Positions 4,528 to 56,559 of a stretch of 64,000 nt of DNA are shown here, one piece after another. The DNA comes from Aliidiomarina soli (GTDB lineage: Bacteria; Pseudomonadota; Gammaproteobacteria; Enterobacterales; Alteromonadaceae). The first letter of the stretch is position 1, and the number at the start of each line of letters is the position of its first letter. Location of the stretch: positions 310,001-374,000 of the forward strand of contig NZ_PIPO01000003.1 of the NCBI RefSeq assembly GCF_003986975.1. Direction: 5' to 3'. A program made the position numbers and the translations under genes. Below the pieces are notes generated by a model. The model saw only the letters and a list, made by a program, of their open reading frames with translations. It was not told where the DNA came from and did not search any database.

Positions 4528-4882
4528 GGGGCTGATCTGGATTCGACGGGATAAATGAAACTTAAGGTGCATGCCGAGGTGAGGCTGGCCTCGTAAAAAG
4601 CCTCAACTTTATAGTTGCAAACGACGACAACTACGCTTTAGCGGCCTAAGACCCGCTAACTATCCACTCGCGCTTAGTCTGGGAGACGAGGTTCGGATAG
4701 TCATCTAAATCAGACTCGTGTGGAAGCTTCTCTCGTAGCTGAAGCATTAAAACTAATCGAGATCGCTGCTAAGTAGCCTGCCACTCGGCGACTTACGCAG
4801 TTAACTAAATGAGATGGCTAAGCATGTAGGACCGAGAGCGGAGTTATTGCGGACGCGGGTTCAAATCCCGCCAGCTCCACCA
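4528..4882 (+). ncRNA. ssrA: Transfer-messenger RNA (tmRNA, SsrA)
   Basis: The 5' end GGGGCTGATCTGGATTCGAC and the 3' end CGGGTTCAAATCCCGCCAGC followed by TCCACCA pair to form the alanine-tRNA-like domain with T loop and encoded CCA. The internal resume codon GCA at 4617-4619 begins the tag reading frame GCA AAC GAC GAC AAC TAC GCT TTA GCG GCC TAA (4617-4649), giving the tag ANDDNYALAA, one residue different from the E. coli ANDENYALAA. Length is 355 nt against 363 in E. coli. It rescues stalled ribosomes with SmpB and targets the products to ClpXP. No smpB gene is in the window. A strong terminator follows immediately. Confidence 0.98.
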
Positions 4883-6280: not shown

Positions 6281-6970
6281 CGAGCCCTATTCGGGGAACG
6301 CGGTGGCCCGTCTCATTAACAGTGCAGCTGAATCATATGTGATCGCCACAGCTCGTTGAAAGGCGCGTATAGTCAATTGGTCAGTTCATCGCGCTTGGGA
6401 TATCAGCTTGTGGAATGCCAAGACGGCGCAGTTTTCAACGGCTTCGACATATGCCTCTCTATACTCTTCTTTCTCAGGCACATCGAGAGCGAAAAACATA
6501 TTTTGTACTCGTAACGAAGCCGAACAAACCTATCGGTCCATTGTTTAGCATGTTCAAATGCGTCGAGTGGGGTCTTTCTGTTGAATGCCAAGGGCTTAAT
6601 GATTGGGCAATTAGCTTAGGATCAACTTGATTCTCCTTGTTCTGGTTTTTGAGAGTGCACATAGCAAATATCATATATACAATCGATAAATTCAATTAAT
6701 CTATTTCATTTACCATAAAAAAACGTATAAATTTTGTACTGTAGAAGCTTGCAATAAAATATTTTTTTGCAATAATTCTACACTCTCGAGATATTTGTAC
6801 GAGTACTTCAACGGATGCCAACAGCGTTGCAAGGAAGTTAATGTGGATTTGTGAATAGAATTTATTTTTAGATTCAATGGGTTGCAGTTCTATCAAGTTA
6901 GAAGGTAGGAATCAGTTATCACAACATTAGTAGTGCTGGGAAGCAATTAACTAAATGAAAGGATTCAAAA
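6281..6970. other. 690-bp AT-rich intergenic region without a convincing gene
   Basis: Short frames exist on both strands (for example 6403-6591 and 6474-6695 on the minus strand) but they overlap each other, lack ribosome sites and look like no family I recognise. A 10-bp sequence GAATGCCAAG occurs twice (near 6414 and 6583). The stretch may contain decayed coding sequence. It marks the beginning of an AT-richer section that runs to about 8.9 kb. Confidence 0.5.
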
Positions 6971-7522
6971 ATGACTAATAAAATATTAACAGTTTTACTG
7001 ACAGTCTCTATAACGCTTCTTGCTAACTTTCAAGTTAAAGCTCAGCAAGCTCCTCTGCCGCCAGGCTATGAAAATGACCCCGAGTTAACAAAAGTTTGCC
7101 AAGGCATCTCTGCTGCAGTAGCGGCAGTGTCGGTGTTTACGCCCGGGGGATTGATTGGGAGGAGTGTGGGAGCTGCTTTCGCTGCAATGAATGCTTATCA
7201 GGAGGTGACCGGGGGGCGGTATAGTGCTAGTGCCCACTGCGAAATGGGTATTCAAGACTTTGTAAAACATTATACGGATAACCCGATCGTATACAATGAT
7301 TGGATCAGAACTGTATGCGGGGGGAATCCTTATAACTGTCCGGGGACTCTGAATGTTGGTAGCCCTAGAGACTGCTCAACTTATATTGTTTGTTCAGATT
7401 ACACGGCAATTCAGCATCGACCATTTTCACTGAATGATTTAATTGCTCCATTTGCGATGACTGAACTGCATGTACAATACAATACTTGGGATAAAGAAAT
7501 GATAGCTTTATTTCCTTGGTGA
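6971..7522 (+). CDS. Secreted cysteine-containing hypothetical protein
   Basis: A 183-aa protein with a clear Sec signal peptide (MTNKILTVLLTVSITLLANF, cleavage after QVKA). The mature part holds a hydrophobic Ala/Gly-rich stretch (GISAAVAAVSVF, GAAFAAMNAYQE) and six cysteines, an even number compatible with three disulfides in the periplasm or outside. AAAGGA at 6958-6963 sets the start. I do not recognise the family. It is followed 13 bp later by a small membrane protein, and base composition is AT-richer than its neighbours, consistent with recent acquisition. Confidence 0.7.
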   Translation: MTNKILTVLLTVSITLLANFQVKAQQAPLPPGYENDPELTKVCQGISAAVAAVSVFTPGGLIGRSVGAAFAAMNAYQEVTGGRYSASAHCEMGIQDFVKHYTDNPIVYNDWIRTVCGGNPYNCPGTLNVGSPRDCSTYIVCSDYTAIQHRPFSLNDLIAPFAMTELHVQYNTWDKEMIALFPW

Positions 7523-7535
7523 AAGTAGATTAACT

Positions 7536-7763
7536 ATGAAAAAATCAAATTTTGTTGTTTTTCTTATTAAGAATTTCCTTATTTCTTTCGGTTTGATTGA
7601 GCTTCTTTTTGCTATGAATGTGCTTCTTGATTGGAGCTACACTATAGAAAACAGTGTTCAGGAGGTAGTTGGTAAATTATTTTTCGCTTCGATTATGGGA
7701 GTGGGATTTACTGTTCGAGATGTACTTTCTAGACGGAAGTGTAAAGAAAATATATCGGTTTGA
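7536..7763 (+). CDS. Small two-helix membrane protein, unknown
   Basis: A 75-aa protein with two probable membrane helices (FVVFLIKNFLISFGLIELLF and, after a polar stretch, KLFFASIMGVGFTV) and a basic C-terminus (RRKCKEN). It begins 13 bp after the secreted cysteine protein and is followed at once by a strong terminator, so the two form a transcription unit. The ribosome site is weak. Function unknown. Confidence 0.6.
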   Translation: MKKSNFVVFLIKNFLISFGLIELLFAMNVLLDWSYTIENSVQEVVGKLFFASIMGVGFTVRDVLSRRKCKENISV

Positions 7764-30787: not shown

Positions 30788-31648
30788 CTAGCGCTGAGTT
30801 ATGATGGCTATATTACCCCGCCCAGTCTGCTCAACACGGATGATGCTATCAGAACTTTGCTGGTATCCGTGGATCTGATTGAAACTTCCGCTTTGAATTA
30901 AGCTGACGTTGCCATTGATTCCCGTCATTTGAAAGGCGGCGTCCCCTCCGATACCGCCGATCAGGTTTGCACTGCCACGCTGTTGCACTTCAAGGTAGTT
31001 ATTTTCACCTAACATCAGCAATGCCAGACTATTGAGTTCCCCCTGCTGTTGCAGTGACACCTGATTGGTTGATTGAGATTGCTGCAAGGTTAGCGCGCTG
31101 GTCGCAGGCGCTGGCAAGGCGCCGTTGAGCAGGCTTTGCTCGAGCTGGTAGCCTTGCAAGGTCTGTGAGCTCATGCTCTCTACCAGCTCCATTAAAGCCG
31201 AGGGGGCGGCTCGGTCGCTGGGCGTTTGTTGTGGCGGTTCGATGGTCGCCAGTTGACTGATTTCGTTGTCATCAAGAATACGTACTTGATGTGCTGCGGG
31301 TACTTCAGCGGGAGCTGGTTCACTGGCGACCAGACTTTGGTCGGATGTTATTGGTTCATGCCATAGAAAAGCAGGCACCTGGTGGCCTGGTGAGCTGGGC
31401 TGATCCAGTGGCACTAACGGCCCGTATCCCTGAGGACGGCGACGTGGCCAGCGGCCGAGAAACGGACGCACACCAGCCAGCGCCAGAGGCGGGCGATTAA
31501 ACGGGTAACGGATAGACGACACAGGTACGGTGTCTGCAAGCTCGGCAGTTGGTTGTGTATGCTGGCGAGCTGAGTAAACAAGCAAACCGACAGCTAAAAT
31601 GCTTAGGGTCGCTGCTGTCGTGCCGAGTATTTTTATAGTAAATTTCAT
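30788..31648 (-). CDS. Membrane-anchored protein with C-terminal curlin-like repeats
   Basis: A 286-aa protein. An N-terminal hydrophobic helix (ILGTTAATLSILAVGLLVYS) acts as an anchor or uncleaved signal. A Pro-rich linker (about 40-180) follows. The C-terminal 100 residues carry curlin-type repeats (QQGELN, LGENN, QRGSAN, QSGSFN, QTGRGN). The last 80 residues align with the C-terminus of the curlin-repeat protein at 33154-34326, sharing GELNSL, a GIGG turn and N-x-I-x-G-x-Q. It may anchor or nucleate the other protein, as CsgB does for CsgA, but no csgB-like sequence or csgEFG genes adjoin. Function is inferred. Confidence 0.75.
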   Translation of the reverse strand: MKFTIKILGTTAATLSILAVGLLVYSARQHTQPTAELADTVPVSSIRYPFNRPPLALAGVRPFLGRWPRRRPQGYGPLVPLDQPSSPGHQVPAFLWHEPITSDQSLVASEPAPAEVPAAHQVRILDDNEISQLATIEPPQQTPSDRAAPSALMELVESMSSQTLQGYQLEQSLLNGALPAPATSALTLQQSQSTNQVSLQQQGELNSLALLMLGENNYLEVQQRGSANLIGGIGGDAAFQMTGINGNVSLIQSGSFNQIHGYQQSSDSIIRVEQTGRGNIAIITQR

Positions 31649-33153: not shown

Positions 33154-34326
33154 ATGTCTACTCTAACAATCAAAAAATCAGTATTAGCGTTAGCCGTTTC
33201 AGTTGCAATTTGCGGTGTCGCTTCAGCAAACCAGACGGACTTAACGCAGGACGGATCGCAAAATACGGCGCTGATTACTCAGATCGGTGCCGCCCAATCC
33301 GTTGTGGCATCTCAAATCGGTGTGATGAATGATTTGGATTTTACTCAGGCAGGGATTGGAAGCTCGCTTGACGCGTTACAGGACGGGTACGATAACCAGG
33401 CAGTTACCTGGCAGGAAGGTGATGACAACAGTCTTGACCTGACTCAGCTAGGCGCCGGTGCTGGTAACCGTATTGATTATTTTGCTCAAGGAAGTAATAA
33501 CTACGGGTCGCTGTTCCAGTCGGGTTCGAACGATATCCAGGCTGAGGTGTATGGTGACTATAACGGCGTTAGTGCAGAGCAGCACGGTAGTAACAACCAG
33601 GTTGAAACCTTGCTTGAGGATACCAACAACAGCCTGAACGCCTATCAAAGTGGTGATGGCAACCAAAGCCTGAGCTACGTTAGCGTGGCTAACGACACGG
33701 CGATTGATACCTGGCAAAGCGGTCAGAATAACTATGCCAGTGTTGATGTCTACACCCGTTTAAACGGCTCAAACTCAACCTTCAATACCTTCTATATTGA
33801 GCAGGATGGTAATCAGAACATCGCTGAAGTGGTTCTCCGCGGCGATGACAATTTCATCAGTGCGGCTCAGTATGGCTCGGACAACGAAACCTACGTTGAT
33901 CAGATCTATCACCACAGCACCTATATTGACAGCGTTCAGGAAGGGACCAGTAACTATCTGGCTATTTCCGTTGCTGGCAATGACAACCAGTACATAGGTT
34001 CGCAGTGGGGTGACGAGAACACGTCTGAAGTTGAGTTTTCATCACGCCACAACGATGTTCAGGCCGAGCAATTTGGTGAACTGAATAGCCTCACCTTGCT
34101 GGTTTCTAATATCCGCAATACGGCCAGCTTTGGTCAGTACGGCTCCAGCAATACCATTCAGGGTATCGGTGGTGGCGCCTTTGAAGTAGGCGGGGCATGG
34201 GGTGACGTTGACCTGGTTCAGGTGGGCAGCAATAACCTGATCCAGGGCCACCAGCTGTCGGATAACAGCAGCATGAGCATAGCCCAACTGGGTACGGCCA
34301 ACTATGCACAGGTGACTCAGAACTAG
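33154..34326 (+). CDS. Curlin-repeat secreted protein (CsgA-like beta-solenoid)
   Basis: A 390-aa protein with a signal peptide (SVLALAVSVAICGVASA-NQ). The body is more than 20 imperfect curlin-type half-repeats with the pattern Q-x-G-x-x-N (QDGSQN, QIGVMN, QDGYDN, QEGDDN, QHGSNN, QSGDGN, QSGQNN, QDGNQN, QYGSDN, QVGSNN, QLGTAN). This predicts a secreted amyloid or beta-solenoid fibre subunit. It is roughly three times the length of E. coli CsgA (151 aa). The C-terminal module is shared with the anchored protein at 30788-31648. The ribosome site is AGAAGG before 33154. No csgG secretion channel is in the window. Confidence 0.85.
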   Translation: MSTLTIKKSVLALAVSVAICGVASANQTDLTQDGSQNTALITQIGAAQSVVASQIGVMNDLDFTQAGIGSSLDALQDGYDNQAVTWQEGDDNSLDLTQLGAGAGNRIDYFAQGSNNYGSLFQSGSNDIQAEVYGDYNGVSAEQHGSNNQVETLLEDTNNSLNAYQSGDGNQSLSYVSVANDTAIDTWQSGQNNYASVDVYTRLNGSNSTFNTFYIEQDGNQNIAEVVLRGDDNFISAAQYGSDNETYVDQIYHHSTYIDSVQEGTSNYLAISVAGNDNQYIGSQWGDENTSEVEFSSRHNDVQAEQFGELNSLTLLVSNIRNTASFGQYGSSNTIQGIGGGAFEVGGAWGDVDLVQVGSNNLIQGHQLSDNSSMSIAQLGTANYAQVTQN

Positions 34327-34405: not shown

Positions 34406-35362
34406 TTAATTTTGAGCCAGCACCACCGAAAACATCTTGTCAGGTGCATGCCACCATTCCACGGCCTGCCAGCCCGCCTTTTCAAGCAAGCTTTCGAACT
34501 CGTTCTGGTGATACTTGTAGGAGTTCTCGGTGTGAATCGTTTCTCCGTCTGCAAAGTTTATTTCACGCCCCGCGACGTCGACACGTTGTTCTCGGGTGGC
34601 CACCAGGTGCATCTCAACGCGGCCTAAGTCAGAATTGTAAAAAGCACGGTGTTCAAACTGGTCGAGTTGAAAGTTCGCATCCAGTTCACGGTTTATACGT
34701 ACCAGCAGATTCTTATTGAATGCAGCGGTAACCCCTTTGCTGTCGTTGTACGCCATTTGCAGTACATCATTTGGCTTTTTGGTATCGACCCCTAACAGCA
34801 TATATTGGCCCTGGCCAAGGGTCTGTCCGGCGTTCTGCAGAAAGTGGGTAGCATCGGCGGGGGAGAAGTTGCCGATCGTTGAACCTGGAAAAAAGCCCAT
34901 GCGCTTGTCGTCACTGGCTGGTAGCCGCAGTGCTTCTGTGAAATCACCTTCCACCGCCGTGACCTCGAGATGTGGATAGCGTGCTTTTAAATTAGTACTG
35001 GCCAGGGCAAGGTGGTCGCCTGAGATATCAATCGCGATGAAGCGGCTGATTGCGCTAATTTTGTCCAGCAGGGGTTTCACTTTATGCAATGAACCAGCGC
35101 CGAATTCAATCACTTCTACCGGCTGACGAAAGCGGTCAGCGAGCGATTCGGCGACCGTCGGGAGCATTGTCATCTCGCATGCATAGGGGTAGTACTCATC
35201 CAGCTGGCAAATCTGATCGAATAGGTGAGATCCACGCGCATCATAGAAGTACTTTGGTGATAGCTGTTTTTGCGGCTGACTCAATCCGGCTAACACATCG
35301 GCTAAGAAGGTGTCGGACGGAGAGACGACGGGATCATTGTTTTGGGTTGGTAAACTGCTCAT
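34406..35362 (-). CDS. egtD: L-histidine N-alpha-trimethyltransferase EgtD
   Basis: A 318-aa SAM-dependent methyltransferase of the EgtD family. It has LSPKYFYDARGSHLFDQICQ, LDEYYPYACEMTML, VIEFGAGSLHKVKPLLD (SAM motif I), PGSTIGNF and VDTKKPNDVLQMAYND. It methylates the amino group of histidine three times to hercynine, the first step of ergothioneine synthesis. The ATG at 35362 directly follows the egtB stop codon (TAG-ATG), so the two are translationally coupled, and GAGG inside the egtB end serves as its ribosome site. Confidence 0.95.
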   Translation of the reverse strand: MSSLPTQNNDPVVSPSDTFLADVLAGLSQPQKQLSPKYFYDARGSHLFDQICQLDEYYPYACEMTMLPTVAESLADRFRQPVEVIEFGAGSLHKVKPLLDKISAISRFIAIDISGDHLALASTNLKARYPHLEVTAVEGDFTEALRLPASDDKRMGFFPGSTIGNFSPADATHFLQNAGQTLGQGQYMLLGVDTKKPNDVLQMAYNDSKGVTAAFNKNLLVRINRELDANFQLDQFEHRAFYNSDLGRVEMHLVATREQRVDVAGREINFADGETIHTENSYKYHQNEFESLLEKAGWQAVEWWHAPDKMFSVVLAQN

Positions 35363-36619
35363 CTATACCTCGTTATCGAGAGTCATTGCCAGCCGTACGC
35401 CGCTAAACTGCCAGCGTTGATACGGGTGAAAAAAGTTACGATAGCTACTACGGATTTGCGCTGCCGGGGTCGCGCAGGACCCCCCCCGCAAAACCATTTG
35501 GTTGATCATAAATTTACTATTGTATTCGGCGAGCGCGCCTTGCGCCGGGGTAAAACCGGGGTAGGGAAGGAAAGCGCTATGAGTCCACTCCCAAAGGGTT
35601 CCAAAAAGCTGTTGCAAACCGCTCTGCACTGGCATTGCAGGGTGGTGCGCGGTGTCCACAGTCAGAAACTGTCCCTGCGCTTTCGCCTTGGCGGGTTGTG
35701 CTGTTGCCGCCTGTTCCCATTCGGCTTCAGTTGGCAGGCGCGCACCTGCATAACGCGCATAGGCGTCTGCTTCGTAATAGCTGACATGGCACACCGGCTC
35801 ATCCAGGATAACCGGGTGGCGACCGCGAAAGCTGAACTGGTACCACTGGTTATCCTTTTTGAACCAATACAGGGGCGCCTGCCATTGCTCTTGCTGAGAT
35901 AAGGCCCAACCTTCTGAAAGCCACAGTTCAGGGCGCTGATAACCGCCGTCTTTTATAAACTGCAACCACTGGCGGTTGCTCACCAGCTGGTTTGCCAGGG
36001 CGAAGGGCGCGTTATATACCTGGTGCTGCGGGCGTTCACAATCGTAAGCAAAGTTATCATCGCTGCCGTTGTCAGCGGCATGCCCAATGTCCACCAAGCC
36101 GCCGTCAAATTCAGTGTAACCGTGGTCGGTAACGCTGTGGCGCTTAACCGCAGAGGCAGAGGTTAAACCTTCGGCATAGGGGTTCAGCGACAGCGCGTGT
36201 TTAATATCCGTCAGAATCAATTCCTGATGCTGCATTTCATGATGCAACCCTATGGTCAGGACAGGTTTAAGGCTGGTCGGGAGGGTCGCGAGCAGCTCAT
36301 CCATCTTCTCGTCGACATAACGACGGTAGTCGATGACTTCATTTAGCCCCGGTCGCGACAACAAGCCGCGTTGCGGCCTTGGGTGTCGCTCACCCACAGC
36401 ATCGTAATAGGAATTAAAGAGGTACCTGAAGTGAGGGTTGAATACTTGATAACCAGGTAAATGAGGCTGCAACAGAAAGGTTTCAAAGAACCAGGTTGTG
36501 TGTGCCAGATGCCATTTGCTCGGGCTGGCGTCCGCCATCGACTGCAGCATCATATCTTCGGCCGAAAGTCCCTTTGTCAGCGCCAGAGTTTGTTCCCTGA
36601 CTGAACGATAATTCAACAT
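35363..36619 (-). CDS. egtB: Ergothioneine biosynthesis sulfoxide synthase EgtB
   Basis: A 418-aa protein. An N-terminal DinB-like domain has the iron ligands WHLAHTTWFFE and LHHEMQHQELI (H-x3-H-x-E). A C-terminal formylglycine-generating-type domain follows (YEADAYARYAGARLPTEAEW, then GTLWEWTHSAF and MVLRGGSCATP). EgtB joins hercynine to a thiol (gamma-glutamylcysteine or cysteine) with O2. It is the first gene of egtB-egtD; egtA, egtC and egtE are absent here, as in many non-actinobacteria that supply the thiol otherwise. Ergothioneine is an antioxidant thiol-histidine. Confidence 0.95.
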   Translation of the reverse strand: MLNYRSVREQTLALTKGLSAEDMMLQSMADASPSKWHLAHTTWFFETFLLQPHLPGYQVFNPHFRYLFNSYYDAVGERHPRPQRGLLSRPGLNEVIDYRRYVDEKMDELLATLPTSLKPVLTIGLHHEMQHQELILTDIKHALSLNPYAEGLTSASAVKRHSVTDHGYTEFDGGLVDIGHAADNGSDDNFAYDCERPQHQVYNAPFALANQLVSNRQWLQFIKDGGYQRPELWLSEGWALSQQEQWQAPLYWFKKDNQWYQFSFRGRHPVILDEPVCHVSYYEADAYARYAGARLPTEAEWEQAATAQPAKAKAQGQFLTVDTAHHPAMPVQSGLQQLFGTLWEWTHSAFLPYPGFTPAQGALAEYNSKFMINQMVLRGGSCATPAAQIRSSYRNFFHPYQRWQFSGVRLAMTLDNEV

Positions 36620-47090: not shown

Positions 47091-49763
47091 ATGGCAAGTC
47101 AAGACAGTCTCGGCACATTGAGTTCGCTCGAGGTAGGGGGAGCCACTTACCATTACTACAGCCTGCCTAAAGCAGCAGAAAAGCTGGGGAATATCAAAAA
47201 ATTACCAGTCTCATTGAAAGTGCTGTTAGAGAATTTATTGCGCTTCGAGGATGGAGACACCGTCACTCGCGATGACTTACAGGCCATGGTTGACTGGCTT
47301 GGCAGCCGTTCCTCGACGCGTGAAATCGCCTACCGTCCTGCGCGGGTACTGATGCAGGACTTTACCGGGGTGCCTGCGGTAGTTGACCTTGCTGCGATGC
47401 GTGATGCAGTGGCCAAAGCGGGGTTAAATGCGGACAAGATAAACCCATTGTCGGCGGTCGATCTGGTGATCGACCACTCGGTTATGGTGGATAAATTTGG
47501 TTCGCCACAATCCTTTGAAGAGAATGTCGAATTTGAAATGGAGCGCAATAAAGAGCGTTACCAGTTTCTTCGCTGGGGGCAGAAAGCCTTTGATAATTTC
47601 CGCGTGGTACCGCCGGGCACTGGTATTTGCCATCAGGTTAACCTTGAGTACCTGGCTAAAGCAGTGTGGACCAAAGAAGAAGATGGCAAGACATTTGCCT
47701 ACCCGGACACCCTGGTTGGAACTGATTCGCATACCACAATGATCAACGGCCTTGGTGTGCTCGGTTGGGGCGTCGGCGGCATTGAAGCTGAAGCCGCCAT
47801 GCTTGGTCAGCCGGTGTCGATGCTGATCCCTGAAGTGGTCGGGTTCCGCCTTAGCGGTAAATTAAGCGAGGGCGTAACAGCGACGGACCTGGTCCTGACT
47901 GTAACCCAGATGCTTCGTGCGCAAGGGGTGGTAGGCAAGTTCGTTGAATTTTACGGTCCGGGTTTAGCAGATTTACCACTCGCTGACCGCGCCACCATCG
48001 CCAATATGGCACCTGAATATGGCGCTACCTGTGGTTTCTTCCCGGTCGATGAGGAAACCCTGACCTACATGCGCCTGACCGGTCGTGAGGAAGAGCAGAT
48101 TGATCTGGTTAAAGCCTACTCACAAGCGCAGGGCACCTGGCGGGACGATTCGGTAGAGCCAGAATTTACCGAAACCCTGGAATTGAATATGGCCGATGTC
48201 GAGCCGTCGTTGGCGGGGCCGAAGCGTCCGCAGGACCGTGTTTCGCTAAGCGGCCTCAACGATGCGTTTGAATTGCTGATGGAGTCGTCCGGGGTCAGTA
48301 CCTCAGATGAAACCAAGGTGCCGATTGAAGGCAGCGACCAGACGTTAACCCATGGTGACGTCGTGATTGCTGCGATAACCTCCTGTACCAATACTTCAAA
48401 CCCCAGTGTGATGATGGCCGCAGGACTGGTCGCGAAGAAAGCCCTGGAAAAAGGCTTGCAGAGCAAGCCCTGGGTGAAAACATCGTTGGCACCTGGCTCT
48501 AAAGTGGTGACTGATTACCTTGAGGCAGCAGGTTTGGACCAGTACCTGGATGAACTCGGTTTCGACCTGGTTGGCTACGGTTGTACCACCTGTATTGGTA
48601 ACTCAGGCCCGTTACCGGATGAAATCAGTAAGGCGGTTGATGAGGGCGATTTGATCGTGTCGTCGGTGTTGTCAGGTAACCGTAACTTTGAAGGCCGTAT
48701 TCACCCGCAAGTTAAGGCCAACTGGCTGGCGTCACCACCGCTGGTGGTGGCATACGCGCTGGCTGGGTCGACGCGTCTTGATTTGAGTAAAGATCCACTG
48801 GGTGAAGATAAAGACGGCAATCCAGTCTATCTGAAAGATGTCTGGCCAACCGAGGCGGAAATTGCCGAGCAGGTGAAACTGGTCGCCAGTGATATGTTCC
48901 GTAAAGAATATGGTGCTACGTTATTTGAAGGGGATGAACACTGGCAGAGCCTGAATATCCCGGATAGCCTTACCTACGAGTGGCAGGATGACTCAACTTA
49001 TGTCGCCAACCCACCATTCTTCGAAGGCATCGACAAGCCACTCAAGGCGCAGGAGGATGTAACAGACGCCTATGTGCTGGCACGTTTTGGCGACTCGATC
49101 ACCACCGACCATATTTCACCGGCCGGCGCCATCAAACCAAGTGCTCCGGCAGGCGAATACCTGCAGAGCAAAGGGGTTGCGATTAAAGACTTCAACTCCT
49201 ACGGGTCGCGTCGCGGCAATCACGAAGTGATGATGCGCGGTACTTTCGCCAATATCCGGATTCGAAACCTGATGGTCGAAGGCAGTGAAGGTGGGGTTAC
49301 ACGTCATGTGCCCAGTGGTGATGAAATGTCAATCTATGACGCGGCTATGCGCTATCAGGAAGAGAAAACACCGCTGGTGATCTTAGCGGGTAAAGAGTAC
49401 GGCACCGGCTCCAGCCGCGACTGGGCAGCGAAAGGTACGCGCTTACTTGGCGTGCGAGCTGTAATTGCACGAAGCTTCGAACGTATTCACCGCTCAAACC
49501 TGGTGGGTATGGGCGTACTGCCGCTGCAATTTAAGGATGGCGAAAGTGCAGATAGCCTTGGCTTAACCGGCGAAGAGAAAATTTCGCTGAGCGGTACCCG
49601 CGACATTAAAGCAGGTCAAAGCGTGCAGGCAACTGCCAAGCGCAGCAATGGTGAAGAGGTTTCTTTTGAACTGCTTTGTCGCATAGATACTGCCAACGAA
49701 GTTGAGTACTACAAGAACGGTGGTATTTTGCACTATGTGTTGCGTCAGCTAATCGCAGCGTAA
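47091..49763 (+). CDS. acnA: Aconitate hydratase A
   Basis: An 890-aa protein, the same size as E. coli AcnA (891). Substrate and 4Fe-4S motifs include TDSHTTMINGLGVLGWGVGG, SCTNTSNPSVM (first cluster Cys), GYGCTTCIGNSGPL (two more cluster Cys) and the swivel-domain KEYGTGSSRDWAAKGT. It converts citrate to isocitrate in the TCA cycle and belongs to the stress-stable AcnA/IRP type. GAGGAGAGG precedes the ATG. A strong terminator follows. Confidence 0.97.
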   Translation: MASQDSLGTLSSLEVGGATYHYYSLPKAAEKLGNIKKLPVSLKVLLENLLRFEDGDTVTRDDLQAMVDWLGSRSSTREIAYRPARVLMQDFTGVPAVVDLAAMRDAVAKAGLNADKINPLSAVDLVIDHSVMVDKFGSPQSFEENVEFEMERNKERYQFLRWGQKAFDNFRVVPPGTGICHQVNLEYLAKAVWTKEEDGKTFAYPDTLVGTDSHTTMINGLGVLGWGVGGIEAEAAMLGQPVSMLIPEVVGFRLSGKLSEGVTATDLVLTVTQMLRAQGVVGKFVEFYGPGLADLPLADRATIANMAPEYGATCGFFPVDEETLTYMRLTGREEEQIDLVKAYSQAQGTWRDDSVEPEFTETLELNMADVEPSLAGPKRPQDRVSLSGLNDAFELLMESSGVSTSDETKVPIEGSDQTLTHGDVVIAAITSCTNTSNPSVMMAAGLVAKKALEKGLQSKPWVKTSLAPGSKVVTDYLEAAGLDQYLDELGFDLVGYGCTTCIGNSGPLPDEISKAVDEGDLIVSSVLSGNRNFEGRIHPQVKANWLASPPLVVAYALAGSTRLDLSKDPLGEDKDGNPVYLKDVWPTEAEIAEQVKLVASDMFRKEYGATLFEGDEHWQSLNIPDSLTYEWQDDSTYVANPPFFEGIDKPLKAQEDVTDAYVLARFGDSITTDHISPAGAIKPSAPAGEYLQSKGVAIKDFNSYGSRRGNHEVMMRGTFANIRIRNLMVEGSEGGVTRHVPSGDEMSIYDAAMRYQEEKTPLVILAGKEYGTGSSRDWAAKGTRLLGVRAVIARSFERIHRSNLVGMGVLPLQFKDGESADSLGLTGEEKISLSGTRDIKAGQSVQATAKRSNGEEVSFELLCRIDTANEVEYYKNGGILHYVLRQLIAA

Positions 49764-49883: not shown

Positions 49884-50363
49884 ATGCAAAAACTGCTAAT
49901 TGGAATCCTCGTCGTGATGAGCACTCTGGGCTCAGGCCTTCTGCTATCCGGCACCGCGTTTGCTGACACGGCCCAACCCGGGTTAACATTGCAGGGACCG
50001 GATAAGGTTCGCGAGGGGTACTTTCAACTCCGTGTAGATGGCGTTGCTGAAGAGGATAGCTTTGTTATTGAGCTTGCTTCCTCGGAGCAGTTTGCAACGG
50101 TCGAAAACACCTTTTCTCCCTTAGGCGCCTTTCGCCAGCTATCTCTTAGCGGTTTCGATGATGGTCGTTATTACTTCCGTGCCGTCCACTCCGGGACGGG
50201 CGAATACAGCAATATTCACCAACTGGATGTGGTTCATTACCCACTGTGGCAGGCATTAAGTCTGTTTACCCTTGGTGCACTGCTCTTTATCAGCCTGCTT
50301 GTGACCATGCTGATATTGACCCGCCGATCCGCTCGCAATCACAAGGAACCTAGTCATGGATGA
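49884..50363 (+). CDS. Periplasm-facing membrane protein, unknown (first gene of symporter operon)
   Basis: A 159-aa protein with a signal peptide (LLIGILVVMSTLGSGLLLSG, cleavage near AFADT). A single beta-rich domain follows (TLQGPDKVREGYFQLRVDGV ... DGRYYFRAVHSGTGEYSNIH), resembling a fibronectin-type fold. A C-terminal membrane helix (LWQALSLFTLGALLFISLLV) comes next, with a basic RRSARNHKEP cytoplasmic tail. The ATG at 49884 is behind GAGCGG. Its 3' end overlaps the symporter start by 8 bp, so the two are translationally coupled. The role may be a symporter-associated periplasmic domain; not recognised as a named family. Confidence 0.75.
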   Translation: MQKLLIGILVVMSTLGSGLLLSGTAFADTAQPGLTLQGPDKVREGYFQLRVDGVAEEDSFVIELASSEQFATVENTFSPLGAFRQLSLSGFDDGRYYFRAVHSGTGEYSNIHQLDVVHYPLWQALSLFTLGALLFISLLVTMLILTRRSARNHKEPSHG

Positions 50364-51783
50364 ATTTGCCCTCGATGCCCGGGTCGGGTTTGCCATCATT
50401 GTCGTGTTCGGACTAGCCTGGATAACCTTTGGCTGGTTTCTCGGGCGTAAGACCACCACCCATGAAGAGTTTGCTTTGGCGGGACGTAATGTTGGGTTCG
50501 CATTTGCCTCCGCTACGGCGATGGCAACCTGGGTTACCAGCAACACCACTCTGGTTGCGCCGGAACTGACGTTCCAGTTCGGTTTGTGGGGTATGGTGGG
50601 GTATTCGTTTGCCGCCCTCGGACTTATTTTGTTTGCGCCGATTTCAGCGCGGATTAAAACCTTGCTGCCAAATGGATACACCAGTGGGGATTTTATCCGT
50701 TTGCGCTTTGGTTTTACCGCCTGGTGTTTGTTCATGGTTATCTCGTTTGTCTATGCGCTGGGTTGGTTAGTCAGCCTGGGAATGGCCGGAGGGATCCTGC
50801 TACAGGCGCTGAGCGGCCTTGATTATCACATCGGAATGTCGGCGATTTTGTTTATCTGCGTACTCTACACCCTGTTTGGCGGGTTACGCGCTGTGATTGC
50901 CACCGACTTTATTCAGGCACTGATTATTATCACCGGTGTGGTTCTGGTCGCGGTGTTATTGCTGACCAATGTCGGCATGCCTGAGATCCACCAGAACCTT
51001 GCTGACCATCATCCGCGGCTGCTCGACCTGCTATTCCCGGCCGCCATTATGTTTTTATTTAATAATATCTTTTTTGGGTTAGGGGAGATCTTTCATTCCA
51101 ACGTGTGGTGGTCAAGAGCCCTCGCGTTTAAACAGAAAGTTGCGTTCAGAGCCTTTTTAACCGGTGGCCTGTTATGGCTCCCTATCCCGATTGTGACTGG
51201 TTTCGTCGCTTTGGCGGCACCGCAATTGGGGATTTTCCCCGCCAGTCCGGATATGGTCGGGCCGACGGTGGCTGCCGCGGTACTTGGCACCGCTGGTGCC
51301 GTGGTGGTTTTTATTGTGGTTTTTTCGGCGCTGGCATCGAGCCTGGATTCACTGCTTGCTGCGACCTCAGATCTGCTAACCCGCGATATTTATCACAAGC
51401 ACCTTAACCGAAAAGCCAACGACAAAACCTTGTTTCGTGCCAATCGCATCGCCATTGCTGGACTCGGCGTCGCCACCTGGATTCTGTGTTTGCCCCAAAT
51501 TACCACGCTGGCCGCGTTGTTGAATTTCACTGGTGCCTTTGTCGCCAGCACGATCTGGCCCATAGTGGTCGGTCTGTATCAGCCACGGCTGGAGGGCAAA
51601 TACGCGGCCGGGGCAATGGCGGCAGGCACGCTATGCGGCCTGGCTGGTTACTTTTTGATTGGTTTTTACGTCGCCGCGCTGATTGCATGTCTGGTCTCAG
51701 CGGTGATAACAGCGGTTGGCGTCTATATGAGTAAACAACATTTTGACTGGGATCTGTTAAATGAGAAGGAGCACACAGAATGA
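50356..51783 (+). CDS. Sodium:solute symporter family transporter
   Basis: A 475-aa inner-membrane protein with about 13 helices of the SSS (LeuT-fold) type. ARNVGFAFASATAMATWVTS-like helix 1 region (GRNVGFAFASATAMATWVTS) and GLFGGLRAVIATDFIQALII (LYTLFGGLRAVIATDFIQAL) are typical. FSALASSLDSLLAATSDLLT in helix 8 carries the Na2-site Ser residues. Substrates of this family are diverse (sugars, amino acids, urea, acetate) and cannot be told here. The downstream genes (carbamoyltransferase, asparagine synthetase) suggest a nitrogenous solute. Its stop overlaps the next microprotein start by 4 bp. Confidence 0.92.
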   Translation: MDEFALDARVGFAIIVVFGLAWITFGWFLGRKTTTHEEFALAGRNVGFAFASATAMATWVTSNTTLVAPELTFQFGLWGMVGYSFAALGLILFAPISARIKTLLPNGYTSGDFIRLRFGFTAWCLFMVISFVYALGWLVSLGMAGGILLQALSGLDYHIGMSAILFICVLYTLFGGLRAVIATDFIQALIIITGVVLVAVLLLTNVGMPEIHQNLADHHPRLLDLLFPAAIMFLFNNIFFGLGEIFHSNVWWSRALAFKQKVAFRAFLTGGLLWLPIPIVTGFVALAAPQLGIFPASPDMVGPTVAAAVLGTAGAVVVFIVVFSALASSLDSLLAATSDLLTRDIYHKHLNRKANDKTLFRANRIAIAGLGVATWILCLPQITTLAALLNFTGAFVASTIWPIVVGLYQPRLEGKYAAGAMAAGTLCGLAGYFLIGFYVAALIACLVSAVITAVGVYMSKQHFDWDLLNEKEHTE

Positions 51784-51899
51784 TCTCCTTAACGGCATTA
51801 ACCCTGATGGTATGGGCAGCAACCATTGCAGGTGCTTTAGTACCTGTGGTGCTGCTGGCGCTATTTTTTATTGACTACAAAGCAAAGACGATCTGGTGA
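51780..51899 (+). CDS. 39-aa single-helix membrane microprotein
   Basis: Starts at ATG 51780, overlapping the symporter stop as ATGA, with AAGGAG (51766-51771) eight bases upstream. The product begins MISLTALTLMVWAATIAGAL, continues VPVVLLALFFIDYKAKTIW and is one membrane helix with a short basic tail. It ends four bases before the carbamoyltransferase start. Small accessory proteins of this kind accompany some SSS symporters (short DUFs and 'symporter small accessory proteins'), which fits this position. It is below usual ORF-size cutoffs. Confidence 0.78.
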   Translation: MISLTALTLMVWAATIAGALVPVVLLALFFIDYKAKTIW

Positions 51900-51903
51900 C
51901 TAT

Positions 51904-52974
51904 ATGAATGTAAGTGATGCCTCGTTTGACCGCGAGAGGCCTGATGTATACGGAGATGCACATCCTAAAGCGCTACTGCGAAGCGTCCAGGAAGATGGCG
52001 ACTATCTGGTAAAACTGTCCAACCAGCATATTGTGTCGTCGGATCAGTTTTCGCGGGATACCCTGATCCAGTTGTTCCGGCTGGCGGCCAAGTATGAGAG
52101 CAACCCGACCCGGTTCCGTTCGCCGCTGCAGGGAAAAATCCTCATTAGCGCCTTCTATGAACCAAGCACCCGCACGCGGCTGTCGTTTGAAAGCGCCTGG
52201 CACCGCTTGGGCGGCGATATTATGTCAATCACTGACCGTTCCACCACTGGGATCGCAAAAGGTGAGTGTCTGGATGATGTCGCAGAAATGTTCAACAACT
52301 ATGGCGACTGCGTGGTGCTGCGCGATAATAACGGCGAGTCATTGGAAAAAATGATGGATACGCTGCGCATTCCGATCGTCAATGCGGGGAACGGACGCGA
52401 CGAGCATCCGACTCAGGCGATGGCGGATCTGTATGCGATCTTCAAATGGCGTCCGGAGCTGCTCGCTGCAGAGGTGCCTGAAGAGCGCAGAATTCGTATT
52501 GGTGTGATAGGAATACCAGGGCGCATGCGCACGGTGCGAAGCTTGTTAAAGAGCCTTGCGGTGTTTCATACCAGTATCAAAGAGGTGGTCATTATCCATG
52601 ATGGCAGTGATGATGACGGGCTGTTTGACCCCGGGCAGCGTGAAGAACTTGAGGAGCGCGGGTTAACTATACGCCTGGCGAATGAGCTGGACGAGGTGCT
52701 ACCGACGCTGGATGTAACCTATATCAACGCCATTGCCTGGGAAGGCGACGGTTTTGAAACCTATGGAAAGAAATTCATTTTAAATGCCGACTCGCCGCTT
52801 AAGCAGGACGGTATCATTTTGCATCCTTTGGCGCGTGGCGAAGAGCTGGCCAAGGATCTCGATAATACGTCGCACAACTGGTACTTCAGCCAGGCGCGTG
52901 GGGCGGTATTTTTACGCATGGCACTGTTAACCTGCATGGTAGAGCGTGCAGAACGTGTCATTGATGTAGTTTGA
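51904..52974 (+). CDS. Divergent aspartate/ornithine carbamoyltransferase-family enzyme
   Basis: A 356-aa protein, longer than catalytic ATCase chains (about 310). The carbamoyl-phosphate site is intact: STRTR at 88-92 (PSTRTRLSFE), Lys119 in AKGE, Arg140, EHPTQ with His168 and Gln171, Arg209. The C-terminal HPLARGEE resembles the HPLPR region. The segment that in ATCase reads Y-x-T-R-x-Q (binding aspartate) is here Tyr273-Ile-Asn-Ala276-Ile-Ala278, so Arg and Gln are both Ala. The amino-acid acceptor is thus probably not aspartate. Not next to pyrI or other pyrimidine genes; it lies in an operon with a symporter and an asparagine synthetase. ATG at 51904 preferred over TTG 51871. Confidence 0.85.
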   Translation: MNVSDASFDRERPDVYGDAHPKALLRSVQEDGDYLVKLSNQHIVSSDQFSRDTLIQLFRLAAKYESNPTRFRSPLQGKILISAFYEPSTRTRLSFESAWHRLGGDIMSITDRSTTGIAKGECLDDVAEMFNNYGDCVVLRDNNGESLEKMMDTLRIPIVNAGNGRDEHPTQAMADLYAIFKWRPELLAAEVPEERRIRIGVIGIPGRMRTVRSLLKSLAVFHTSIKEVVIIHDGSDDDGLFDPGQREELEERGLTIRLANELDEVLPTLDVTYINAIAWEGDGFETYGKKFILNADSPLKQDGIILHPLARGEELAKDLDNTSHNWYFSQARGAVFLRMALLTCMVERAERVIDVV

Positions 52975-52991
52975 CAGAGGACTGAACCCGT

Positions 52992-55007
52992 ATGTGCGGA
53001 ATTGCAGGTGTTTTTTACAACCAACCTAAACACATGATTGAGCCACAAGTCTTAGTCAATATGGCGGCCATTATGCACCACCGTGGTCCTGATGGATTTG
53101 GTTATAAAACCATAGCCGAGCAGGGCGTTGGTTTTTCCCATGCTCGTTTGTCCATTATCGATTTGGTCGGTGACCGTGGCCGGCAACCGTTTTTATCTGA
53201 TGACAAACGCTTGATGCTGGCCCATAACGGCGAGTTCTATGACTTTAAACGTATCCGAGCGCAGTTAACGGCCGAAGGAGCCCGCTTTAATACCAAGAGT
53301 GATTCTGAAATTATCATGCAGCTGTATCCGCGGTTTGGCATGCAAGGCATGTTGCCCCATTTACGTGGTGAGTTTGCGTTCTCGCTGTATGATCAGGAAG
53401 AAGATACCCTGTTTCTGGTGCGCGACCGCTTTGGGGTTAAGCCGTTGTACTACACCCAAACTGACAAAGGCATTGTGTTCGGTTCTGAGCTGAAAACCAT
53501 CTTTGCCCATCCGGAAGTGCCACGCCAGTTCTCAGATGAGGGTGTTTACCATCAGTTGATTCAGACCATGGTGCCCGGTACCACTGCGTTTGAAGGCATT
53601 CGTCAGGTGATGCCCGGGCATGTGGTCAGTGTTAAACGGGTCAACGGTAAGTTACATATCGAAGAGAGCAAATACTGGGACATGGAGTTTCCCCTTGAGC
53701 ATGAACATGACAAAGACGACAAACGTGCTGACGAGTACGTTGAAGGGGTTCGCCGGGAGTTGTTAGAAGCGGTTCAACATCGCCTGACTGCTGATGTACC
53801 TGTGGGGTGTTATTTGTCGGGGGGCATTGATTCGTGCTCGATACTTGGGCTATCGGCTGCAGCTAGTCAGGAGCCGGTAAAAGCCTTTACCATTGGTTTC
53901 GATTCAGCAGCCTATGATGAAACACCAATAGCCCGCGAAATGGCCGAGGCAACCGATGCTGACCATCATGTGATGACGCTTGATTCAAATGACCTTTATG
54001 ATCATTTTGAAACTACGCTCTGGCATACCGAGCGCACCATCTATAATACCCTGGGTGTGGCAAAATACCTGATGAGCCAGCAGGTTCGTGATGTTGGCTA
54101 CAAGGTTGTGATGACTGGCGAAGGTGCTGATGAATTATTCGCTGGTTATCCGTCATTCCGCAAAGATCTGTTTATGTACGGATTGGACCATCTGCCACCG
54201 GAAGAACGTGCTAACTGGCAGGCCATGCTGGAAAAGAACAACAAGCTATTCAAAGGTGCCATGCTGGCACGGGAAGAATTTGTCAGCGATGCCTTCGTAG
54301 CTAAAATGGGCTTTACCCCCAGTTGCTTGCAACCCTGGCTGTCCTGCAGCGGTTTTGCGGATAAACTGCTGGCAAAAGACCGACGCCAACGGATGCAGGG
54401 CTATGACGCTGGTAAGGCGATTGCTGATACCCTGGATGCGGACATGCTGGCAGAACGGCATCCGCTCGATAAAGCTCAGTATGTGTGGACTAAAACCATG
54501 CTCGAAGGTCAGATCCTGACCTGGGGTGGTGATCGGGTGGATATGGCAAATTCGATGGAAGCGCGGCCGGCATTTTTGGACCATAAACTGGCCGAATACG
54601 CATTTAAGATCCCGCCTCATTTACGTATTCGCGAAAACAAAGAGAAATGGGTCCTGCGTGAGGCAATGAAAGGGCTGTTACCGGAAACTCTGTATAAGCG
54701 CGAGAAGTTTGCGTTTATGGCACCTCCAGCGCATACCGATCCGAAAAAATGGGCGGCCATGCGGGCCTTAGCGAAAAAGTACCTCAACAAAGAGTCTGTT
54801 GAAGAGGCGGGTTTGCTCGATCACGATGAAGTCAATGCGCTGTTTGCATTGCATGATGCGGATGATGCGCCGGCAGAGCTGCAGGTGCAACTGGACGCGG
54901 TGATTAACCATATGCTGGGGGTTCAGATCCTGCACAAGCAGTTTGTCGCAACGGATCTGCCAGCAAAAGCCGCAGCACGGGCTGACGAACTTGGTTGGCA
55001 TGCCTAA
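52992..55007 (+). CDS. Glutamine-hydrolysing asparagine synthetase family enzyme, long AsnB type
   Basis: A 671-aa protein, well over the 554 aa of E. coli AsnB. N-terminal glutaminase domain: MCGIAGVFYN (Cys nucleophile after Met removal), HHRGPDGFGYKT, LAHNGEFYDF, ARLSIIDL. C-terminal ATP-pyrophosphatase domain: LSGGIDSCSILGLSAA (PP-loop), AFTIGFDSAAYDETPIAREM, VMTGEGADELFAGYP. An extension of about 100 residues lies beyond the standard end. It amidates an acid with glutamine and ATP, usually aspartate; in this operon another substrate is possible. AGAGGA lies ahead of 52992. The terminator follows at 55063. Confidence 0.87.
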   Translation: MCGIAGVFYNQPKHMIEPQVLVNMAAIMHHRGPDGFGYKTIAEQGVGFSHARLSIIDLVGDRGRQPFLSDDKRLMLAHNGEFYDFKRIRAQLTAEGARFNTKSDSEIIMQLYPRFGMQGMLPHLRGEFAFSLYDQEEDTLFLVRDRFGVKPLYYTQTDKGIVFGSELKTIFAHPEVPRQFSDEGVYHQLIQTMVPGTTAFEGIRQVMPGHVVSVKRVNGKLHIEESKYWDMEFPLEHEHDKDDKRADEYVEGVRRELLEAVQHRLTADVPVGCYLSGGIDSCSILGLSAAASQEPVKAFTIGFDSAAYDETPIAREMAEATDADHHVMTLDSNDLYDHFETTLWHTERTIYNTLGVAKYLMSQQVRDVGYKVVMTGEGADELFAGYPSFRKDLFMYGLDHLPPEERANWQAMLEKNNKLFKGAMLAREEFVSDAFVAKMGFTPSCLQPWLSCSGFADKLLAKDRRQRMQGYDAGKAIADTLDADMLAERHPLDKAQYVWTKTMLEGQILTWGGDRVDMANSMEARPAFLDHKLAEYAFKIPPHLRIRENKEKWVLREAMKGLLPETLYKREKFAFMAPPAHTDPKKWAAMRALAKKYLNKESVEEAGLLDHDEVNALFALHDADDAPAELQVQLDAVINHMLGVQILHKQFVATDLPAKAAARADELGWHA

Positions 55008-55062
55008 CTGTTGTAAGGCATCTGTTGGAAAGAGTGGTGAAAACATTGGTCGAACACATGGA

Positions 55063-55087
55063 AAAAGCCCCGCGAGGGGCTTTTTTT
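55063..55087 (+). terminator. Terminator ending the symporter operon
   Basis: Stem AAAAAGCCCC / GGGGCTTTTT with a GCGA loop, then T. Confidence 0.92.
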
Positions 55088-55131
55088 GTGCCTTTATAGC
55101 GCTATTCATGGATCGACTTTTCTTTTTAAGT

Positions 55132-55242: not shown

Positions 55243-56559
55243 ATGATAACGACTATTTCCTTTCATCCCGCTAAGCTGGCCATGGCAATCAGTGCGGTTC
55301 TGCTGCTGGCAGCCTGTGACGACACCAGTATTCAGCCTATCGAGCATGATGAAGATCATGATCACTCGGATGACCACGAGCATGAGGACAGTGCCGCTGG
55401 GCGTCTTATTTTCATGGAATACGGTAACGATGCAACCCGTGCTTTTGTCTATGACCTCGAGGCCAATGAATTACTGGAATCGTTTGACCTGCAAAGCCCA
55501 GGCCGTTTGCTAGCAAGCCCGGATTATCGCTATGCAGTTGCGATTCAGCGCGATGCCGGGGTGACTCGCTTTGTGGACAGCGGGTATGAAACTGAACCTC
55601 ATGGCGACCATGCACATTACAATGAGCTGGCTCCGGCATTATCGGGTTTCACTTTGACAGGAGAGCGGCCGACTCATTACGATTTTTATCATCACCGAGG
55701 GGCCCTTTTTTATGATGGTGCTGAGGGGATCGCCTCTAAAATTGAGGTTTTTTCCGACCAGAGTATTGTCGAGGAGCAAGTGCTGGCGGAGCTGGAGTTA
55801 AGCAGTTCGATGCATGGTGCTGCTGAGATCCGTGAAGACTATTTGTTCACTGCCAACCGCAGCGACGCAACCGCGACAGGTTTGCCCGATTCGGTTGAAG
55901 TCTACGAGCGTCATTCTGATCACTTCGATTTCGTCCAGGGTTTTGAAAATGAGTGTGTAGATTTACATGGCAGCGCCCTGAACGAGCAGCATGTAGCCTT
56001 TGGCTGTGGTGATGGCGTGTTGCTGTTGTCGGTAGCTGAAGATGGCAGCTTCGTGAGTGAAAAACTAAGCATGCCGGAAACGCTGGGAGGTCGTGTCGGC
56101 TCACTGTGGGGACATGAAGAGAGCCCGTATTTTATCGGCAGTGCAGGGCAGGACATGGTACTGATCGATGCGTCGACTGGTGAAAGCTGGCAGCTTGACT
56201 GGAAAGTTGACGAGGCGCGGGAATTTGGCTCTGTTGCGTTTAACTATACTGGCAATCGCTTTGCTGTTCTCGACACTGCAGGCGACATGACTATTTTCCG
56301 TTTACGCGAGCAGGACCATGAGAGTTATCCGTTTGAGTTGCAGAGTCAGTTCACGGTGGTGTCTGATACTCATGAAATGTCGCTGGCTATGACCGTGAGC
56401 CAGGTTAACCACCAGGCGTATATTGCTGACCCGGGGCATCAGAGAATTACTGTGGTTGATTTGCATGATGGCGAAGTGGTAGAGCAACGTGACTTAGATG
56501 TTGAGCCGGGTAGCTTGATTTGGACTGGCTTTACCTCTGAAGAGTCTCACGATCACTAA
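55243..56559 (+). CDS. AztD-like zinc metallochaperone lipoprotein
   Basis: A 438-aa lipoprotein (lipobox LLAAC, Cys25). A His/Asp/Glu-rich metal-binding stretch follows (IEHDEDHDHSDDHEHEDSA). The rest is a beta-propeller-like domain resembling AztD, the periplasmic zinc chaperone of the AztABCD importer of Paracoccus (for example a GDHAHYN metal loop at about 126). The usual AztABC genes are not adjacent. A Zur-box-like palindrome lies upstream, supporting zinc-starvation regulation. Being a lipoprotein, it would sit on the membrane rather than diffuse. Confidence 0.85.
   Translation: MITTISFHPAKLAMAISAVLLLAACDDTSIQPIEHDEDHDHSDDHEHEDSAAGRLIFMEYGNDATRAFVYDLEANELLESFDLQSPGRLLASPDYRYAVAIQRDAGVTRFVDSGYETEPHGDHAHYNELAPALSGFTLTGERPTHYDFYHHRGALFYDGAEGIASKIEVFSDQSIVEEQVLAELELSSSMHGAAEIREDYLFTANRSDATATGLPDSVEVYERHSDHFDFVQGFENECVDLHGSALNEQHVAFGCGDGVLLLSVAEDGSFVSEKLSMPETLGGRVGSLWGHEESPYFIGSAGQDMVLIDASTGESWQLDWKVDEAREFGSVAFNYTGNRFAVLDTAGDMTIFRLREQDHESYPFELQSQFTVVSDTHEMSLAMTVSQVNHQAYIADPGHQRITVVDLHDGEVVEQRDLDVEPGSLIWTGFTSEESHDH

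Follow-up and report, generated by a model that had tools for sequence, protein, structure and literature searches.

Why should an SSS-family symporter share an operon with a carbamoyltransferase and an enzyme that resembles asparagine synthetase? The question is raised by five genes of Aliidiomarina soli located in the window analysed here, a stretch of 64,000 nucleotides of contig NZ_PIPO01000003.1 (assembly GCF_003986975.1). In order, the operon codes for an Fn3-like membrane-anchored protein, the symporter, a microprotein, an ATCase-fold carbamoyltransferase (CT) and an AsnB-like glutamine-dependent amidotransferase. Judged from gene content, we consider it probable that CT carbamoylates glutamine and that the AsnB-like enzyme amidates the carboxyl group, which would yield the osmolyte N-carbamoyl-glutamine amide (CGA), a compatible solute reported in 1991. 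The symporter and the microprotein would recapture the solute and hydrolases would recycle it.

Conservation of the gene set

CT, called at E ≤ 1e-50, was found in 21 of the 147 genomes of the family sample, including the genome of the window itself. The genes for the Fn3-like protein, the symporter, CT and the AsnB-like enzyme are collinear in all 20 other CT-bearing genomes, and the microprotein was detected by tblastn in 18 of these. From a collection of named genomes, the best 80 of 217 relatives were kept for locus counts. In 80/80 of these loci, no more than 392 bp separate the ends of the CT and AsnB-like matches; the symporter is present in 79, the exception (L123) being cut by a contig end. 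The gene order is not due to chance, since it is collinear in 20/20 family genomes and the pairing of CT with the AsnB-like enzyme is kept in 80/80 named loci.

A class-wide sample of 369 Gammaproteobacteria yielded CT (E ≤ 1e-60) in 25 genomes, with 22 matches at least 60% identical when the own genome is excluded. The AsnB-like gene adjoins CT in 20 of these 22 loci and both misses are located at contig ends. The other flank of the gene pair carries the symporter in 18 loci of this sample and an amidase plus a carbamoylase in four. Two of the 22 matches (genomes G252 and G467) also belong to the Ectothiorhodospiraceae-type family set described below. A first-pass annotation of the window had treated separation of the genes in most related genomes as evidence against a functional unit; in all three surveys the genes were found together.

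Carriers span Gamma-, Alpha- and Betaproteobacteria and cyanobacteria. Among the named genomes they comprise Idiomarinaceae (35 loci), Kangiella, Pleionea, Alteromonas, Pseudoalteromonas, Ketobacter and a metagenome-assembled genome (MAG) of Thiotrichaceae, the alphaproteobacteria Kordiimonas and Pseudokordiimonas, Nitrosomonas halophila and four Cyanobium/Synechococcus loci. Most of the carrier genera are marine or halophilic.

The core enzymes and the linked hydrolases

For CT, an alignment of 99 rows was used, comprising the window protein and those of 98 of 99 loci (L185 was left out, as its CT is in two pieces); 36 rows belong to Idiomarinaceae. None of the 99 rows deviates at the carbamoyl-phosphate site (STRT, Arg, His, Gln), at Lys119 in the adjoining loop or at Arg209, and Asn275 and Trp279 are likewise invariant. 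According to the excerpted text of PMC7878868, an arginine of the Arabidopsis ATCase binds the alpha-carboxylate of an aspartate analogue and an Arg/Gln pair binds its beta-carboxylate. Residue equivalence was set via the alignment with Escherichia coli ATCase and the own genome's ATCase. At the position of the beta-carboxylate Arg, CT features Ala or Ser (93/6), and at that of the Gln it features Ala, Ser, Val or Thr (64/33/1/1); Arg or Gln occurs at these positions in 0/99 rows. The Asp-loop stretch reads NAIA in CT, compared to TRIQ in the own genome's ATCase. Because it is devoid of the Arg/Gln pair that holds the side chain of aspartate, CT is hardly a pyrimidine enzyme. Its residues suit a putative amino-acid substrate whose side chain is neutral and whose alpha-carboxylate is free, so that carbamoylation would precede amidation.

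Model scores point in the same direction. CT scores 185.1 bits against the ATCase equivalog TIGR00670 and 84.8 bits against the OTC model TIGR00658, values below the respective cut-offs of 236.95 and 280.85 bits. All 99 rows have HPLA, as opposed to HCLP, the motif of OTC. The structural model of CT (pLDDT 82.9) has the ATCase fold, with a TM-score of the top match of 0.76 by query and 0.88 by target. What looks like a second CT-like family, 38–41% identical to CT, was observed in three further loci of the class-wide sample (L146, L147 and L148 of genomes G418, G308 and G392, respectively). Its members have no AsnB-like or symporter gene within 1.5 kb and their carbamoyl-phosphate loop is altered (e.g. 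VNQTR compared to STRT).

The AsnB-like protein of the window and the six relatives shown share the MCGI.G motif (Cys2) and the SGG[IV]DS loop. The TT.RAS stretch of true AsnB is missing, as it is in other AsnB paralogues; this residue comparison disregards the reference rows L200, L223 and probably part of L199. The protein scores below the cut-off for asparagine synthase B (NF006949, 287.2 vs 499 bits) and below that of the XrtA amidotransferase model. Assignment as the amidotransferase of N-acetylglutaminylglutamine amide (NAGGN) biosynthesis was rejected on the basis of TIGR03104 (316.3 vs 570.1 bits). A study of human asparagine synthetase (PMC6748925, in the excerpted text) did not decide the substrate of the AsnB-like enzyme.

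Clustering of neighbouring open reading frames in 64 loci outside Idiomarinaceae (45 named and 19 of the Ectothiorhodospiraceae type) yielded one further frequent gene, present in 42 of them. It codes for an enzyme of the N-carbamoyl-L-amino-acid hydrolase/allantoate amidohydrolase family (nearest structure 3n5f), termed carbamoylase in the following. With tblastn, requiring alignments longer than 300 aa, the gene was detected in 39 of the 45 named loci, including three cyanobacterial loci at 34–35% identity. The cut-off of TIGR01879 (204 bits) is exceeded by the proteins of Kangiella (341.6), Cyanobium (383.5) and the own genome (306.5 bits); the last is encoded by an unlinked gene at G000:C4:13702-14838 and is 63% identical to the Kangiella protein. 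Depending on the group, the gene is located upstream and divergent, upstream and codirectional, downstream and codirectional or downstream and convergent. These differing arrangements argue for a repeated recruitment of the putative carbamoylase. In the Ectothiorhodospiraceae-type family, an isochorismatase-type amidase is encoded between the carbamoylase and either CT or the symporter; it is nearest to biuret and N-carbamoylsarcosine hydrolases, with 66.8 bits against the biuret hydrolase cut-off of 370. A carbamoyl-removing and an amide-removing hydrolase could mirror CT and the AsnB-like enzyme. As a separate observation, a MarR-family gene was found a few kb from the cluster (e.g. L075, 14416-14871) in 12 of the 64 loci by clustering, and by tblastn near many Idiomarinaceae loci too; it may have a regulatory role or simply happen to lie there.

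A predicted CGA pathway and its alternatives

CGA was reported from Ectothiorhodospira marismortui, as stated in the excerpted text of PMC1224877, and is also named in PMC7824335. The Ectothiorhodospiraceae-type family set (f108, 47 genomes, including Thioalkalivibrio sp. K90mix) has CT in 41 genomes and in 38/38 of those with a completeness of 90% or more and a contamination of 5% or less. Stretches of 14–15 kb were fetched for 19 of the 41 CT loci. Ten of these represent genus g159, all ten genomes of which have photosynthetic reaction-centre genes. The order carbamoylase-amidase-CT-AsnB was found in 10/10 g159 loci, and no symporter of the window type lies within the fetched stretch of any of them. 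A sucrose synthase gene is located beside the cluster in all ten (L177-L186) and a fructokinase-like gene in eight; it looks as if the gene pair lay in an osmolyte island. Sucrose itself is a compatible solute (PMC7824335). The nine other fetched loci comprise five with the symporter, three without it (L188, L191, L192) and L193 of genome G559, in which CT lies at 6408-7493 and no AsnB-like, symporter or hydrolase neighbour was detected in the 14 kb fetched. The core of CT and AsnB-like genes hence occurs without the symporter in 13 of the 18 fetched loci that have it (ten of g159 plus L188, L191 and L192).

The core genes are present in G467, the candidate match of E. marismortui. The G + C content of its locus is 68.7%, compared to 68.2% for E. 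marismortui DSM 4180 and 68.4% for strain DG9. For G520, the candidate match of E. mobilis DSM 237, the values are 68.6% and 68.3%, and the fit is imperfect. Over 13 kb, the two loci share 94% identity; the published average nucleotide identity of the two species is 92.6. The gene betA is missing in G467 and G520, as well as in G252 and G518, and its absence is implied for E. marismortui and E. mobilis (PMC7824335). No paper naming CGA genes was found among the matches listed in the open literature, with most subscription journals outside the scope. In a term search, the main text of PMC8092127, which reports RNA-Seq of Thioalkalivibrio at low temperature, contained neither 'carbamoyl' nor 'asparagine'.

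In the predicted pathway, CT would move the carbamoyl group of carbamoyl phosphate onto the alpha-amine of L-glutamine, giving N-carbamoyl-glutamine. The AsnB-like enzyme, with ATP and ammonia derived from glutamine, would then amidate the free alpha-carboxyl group to give an uncharged osmolyte, the 1-amide. Leaked or external solute would be reabsorbed by the symporter and the microprotein, possibly together with the Fn3-like protein. In relatives, the amidase and the N-carbamoyl-L-amino-acid hydrolase would undo both steps at falling salt and return glutamine; the genome of A. soli has an unlinked carbamoylase copy. The first-pass annotation had proposed either import and modification, or synthesis, of a nitrogenous compound. 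Of these, synthesis is better supported, because CT and the AsnB-like enzyme are the most constant core and are found without the symporter in the 13 loci mentioned. We lean, by a smaller degree of confidence than for the pathway itself, towards the broader view that the operon and the linked hydrolases serve CGA synthesis, uptake and recycling, with a glutamine carbamoyltransferase of new specificity, an N-carbamoylglutamine amidotransferase and a symporter equipped with its own microprotein subunit, and that CGA is a widespread marine and soda-lake osmolyte in Gamma-, Alpha- and Betaproteobacteria and some cyanobacteria.

Several observations weigh against CGA synthesis. The sequence of CT does not settle which amino acid it uses, as asparagine or another neutral amino acid would fit too, and the chemistry is deduced from the genes. 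The AsnB-like enzyme exceeds the cut-off of the broad asparagine synthase model TIGR01536 (446.9 vs 267.1 bits); this match does not fix its substrate, since the NAGGN amidotransferase passes as well (443.6 bits). The congener G059 has no AsnA and the AsnB-like protein is its only Asn_synthase match. G252, again without AsnA, has the AsnB-like protein, an NAGGN-type protein and weak matches only, so neither genome has another evident asparagine synthetase. The carbamoylase is linked in none of the 35 loci of Idiomarinaceae, the group of the window, and was not detected in six other named loci, three of which are short or cut. CT lacks an AsnB-like partner in one of the 19 fetched loci (L193), and in L185, from a genome matching Ectothiorhodospira sp. 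BSL-9, CT (6654-7678) lies in two pieces in different frames. Three of the four cyanobacterial loci come from MAGs. The match of G467 to E. marismortui is based on genome statistics, the missing betA and the identity to the E. mobilis match. Finally, according to the excerpted text of PMC3857566, CGA is among the minor solutes of E. marismortui and no signal attributable to it was seen by Raman spectroscopy.

Another N-carbamoyl amino-acid amide, with asparagine, glutamate or a beta-amino acid as possible precursor, could serve as osmolyte or nitrogen store. CT keeps the alpha-carboxylate arginine, what is known of its side-chain pocket is the loss of the residues that bind the acidic side chain of aspartate, and enzymes of the linked carbamoylase family accept a broad range of substrates, all of which would be compatible with such a product. 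We nevertheless regard it as unlikely, given that we know of no natural compound with such a structure other than CGA, and that CGA was reported from a species whose matching genome has the core. Salvage is an improbable explanation: the symporter would take up a ureido compound for its nitrogen, with CT running in reverse to carbamoyl phosphate, in the manner of catabolic OTC or putrescine carbamoyltransferase. Such a role agrees with the linkage of the symporter and with the carbamoylase and amidase genes of relatives. However, the core dispenses with the symporter in most of the fetched f108 loci that have it, an ATP-consuming amidotransferase would be ill-suited to degradation, and the linked hydrolases would already be enough for breakdown.

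A secreted or signalling natural product in place of an osmolyte is very improbable. AsnB-like enzymes also take part in lasso peptide and hydroxyamide biosynthesis, and the window protein matches such families, but the operon contains neither exporter nor regulator genes and no additional tailoring gene (many relatives have a MarR-family gene nearby), the names of the carriers point mostly to saline habitats, and sucrose synthase is a neighbour in the Ectothiorhodospira-type genus. We attach least probability of all to duplicates of ordinary pyrimidine and asparagine enzymes that are adjacent by chance. Family-level homology to ATCase and AsnB, the passed TIGR01536 cut-off and the two carriers without another evident asparagine synthetase (G059 and G252) speak for it. 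On the other hand, the own genome has a separate ATCase (605.6 bits, cut-off 512), OTC and AsnA elsewhere, and the CT-less congeners G010 and G122 have AsnA with only weak Asn_synthase matches. The ATCase side-chain residues are lost in CT and the gene pair is kept across phyla. The suggestion of the first-pass annotation that the enzymes might have ordinary aspartate and asparagine roles, with the pyr genes lacking elsewhere, thus fails, and for this genome an ordinary role was rejected on paralogues, model scores and side-chain residues.

If CGA synthesis is the correct reading, the operon provides a testable gene set for an orphan compatible solute in many culturable marine bacteria. It would also extend the ATCase/OTC superfamily by a new amino-acid specificity; the operon genes risk annotation as pyrB or asnB. 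A nitrogen-rich osmolyte pool, which could be sought directly by metabolomics, would then be predicted in marine bacteria and possibly in cyanobacteria.

Operon layout, accessory proteins and known systems

The coordinates were re-derived (Table 1) and agree with the five genes, their order, overlaps and 4-base gap as first annotated, including the two bounding terminators. The genes for the Fn3-like protein and the symporter overlap by 8 bp and those for the symporter and the microprotein by 4 bp (ATGA). Gaps of 4 bp and 17 bp precede the genes for CT and the AsnB-like enzyme, respectively. The downstream hairpin was missed by the terminator scan and seen on folding (15 pairs, −21.8 kcal/mol, z −5.2). 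Pfam families above the cut-off among the operon proteins are SSF, OTCace_N/OTCace, GATase_6/7 and Asn_synthase.

Table 1 Features of the operon and its boundaries (window positions)
Feature	Position	Strand	Remarks
Terminator-like stem-loop	49777..49802	both strands in scan	between aconitase gene (47091-49763) and operon
Fn3/Ig-like membrane-anchored protein, 159 aa	49884..50363	+	N-terminal signal-like helix, beta-sandwich, C-terminal helix
SSS-family symporter, 475 aa, predicted solute importer	50356..51783	+	PF00474 101.7 bits; nearest solved relatives DUR3
Microprotein, 39 aa, single transmembrane segment, predicted small symporter subunit	51780..51899	+	conserved ...D..K..[LI]W terminus
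CT, ATCase-fold carbamoyltransferase, 356 aa, predicted glutamine carbamoyltransferase	51904..52974	+	
AsnB-like glutamine-dependent amidotransferase, 671 aa	52992..55007	+	Cys2 glutaminase domain, SGGIDS loop
Terminator hairpin	55057..55090	+	G+C core, A tract pairing with flanking T tract

The Fn3-like protein has no Pfam or NCBIfam match at E values up to 1 and is a poorly conserved accessory protein according to an alignment of 19 proteins. In its AlphaFold model (pLDDT 88.6), a small beta-sandwich is flanked by one helix at the N-terminus and another at the C-terminus; the Foldseek matches are Fn3/Ig-like, though weak, with query TM-scores of at most 0.45 among the 50 matches listed. The symporter exceeds the PF00474 cut-off of 22.8 bits and is below that of the NCBIfam SSS superfamily model TIGR00813 (135.8 vs 184 bits). 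Of 84 loci (80 named and four others), 82 have a short hydrophobic frame with [LIVM]W at its end at the microprotein site, a count from a pattern search without chance control. The two misses are L123, which also has no symporter, and L122, in which the frame ends in AW. The microprotein looks like a real gene because this frame is kept in so many loci. Its sole Pfam match, PufX (11.9 bits, cut-off 25), was taken as chance.

Further features of the window were noted by eye. Just past the operon terminator, positions 55243-56559 (+) code for a lipoprotein-like protein with a His/Asp-rich stretch, possibly zinc-binding and periplasmic. Two neighbouring reading frames at 34406-36619 (−) resemble EgtB- and EgtD-type proteins of an ergothioneine-like pathway, and repeated N/Q/G motifs at 30788-31648 (−) and 33154-34326 (+) are curli subunit-like. 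In addition, the window contains a tmRNA gene at 4528-4882 (+) with the tag ANDDNYALAA.

Compared to known systems, CT resembles PyrB in fold, carbamoyl-phosphate site and alpha-carboxylate arginine. It differs in the replaced Arg/Gln pair for the aspartate side chain, the sub-equivalog score and the location beside an amidotransferase and solute-type genes. Among proteins of solved structure, DUR3 urea transporters come nearest to the symporter (E 3.6e-30, next kind 4.5e-9), a kinship that gives a weak hint at a ureido substrate. Unlike DUR3 and other SSS symporters, the window symporter has the 39-aa and Fn3-like proteins as putative partners. The linked hydrolases are homologous to the HyuC/AllC family and to isochorismatase-type biuret hydrolases; in contrast to these, they lie beside a carbamoyltransferase, the product of which they are predicted to recycle.

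With the reported CGA system the operon shares the predicted product, and the candidate genome of the producer species carries the core genes. CGA was, however, reported from a single organism, E. marismortui, whereas the operon genes extend far beyond Ectothiorhodospira. The glutamine-based neutral osmolyte NAGGN is finished by an AsnB-type amidotransferase. The predicted CGA pathway is similar in its masked glutamine derivative, the amidation of a carboxyl group by a member of the AsnB superfamily and a neutral osmolyte as product. It is distinguished by the AsnB-like enzyme, which is far below the TIGR03104 cut-off, and G520 has a separate NAGGN amidotransferase (TIGR03104, 992.8 bits). The genes probably constitute an osmolyte operon whose novelty lies in its first step, the carbamoylation of glutamine.

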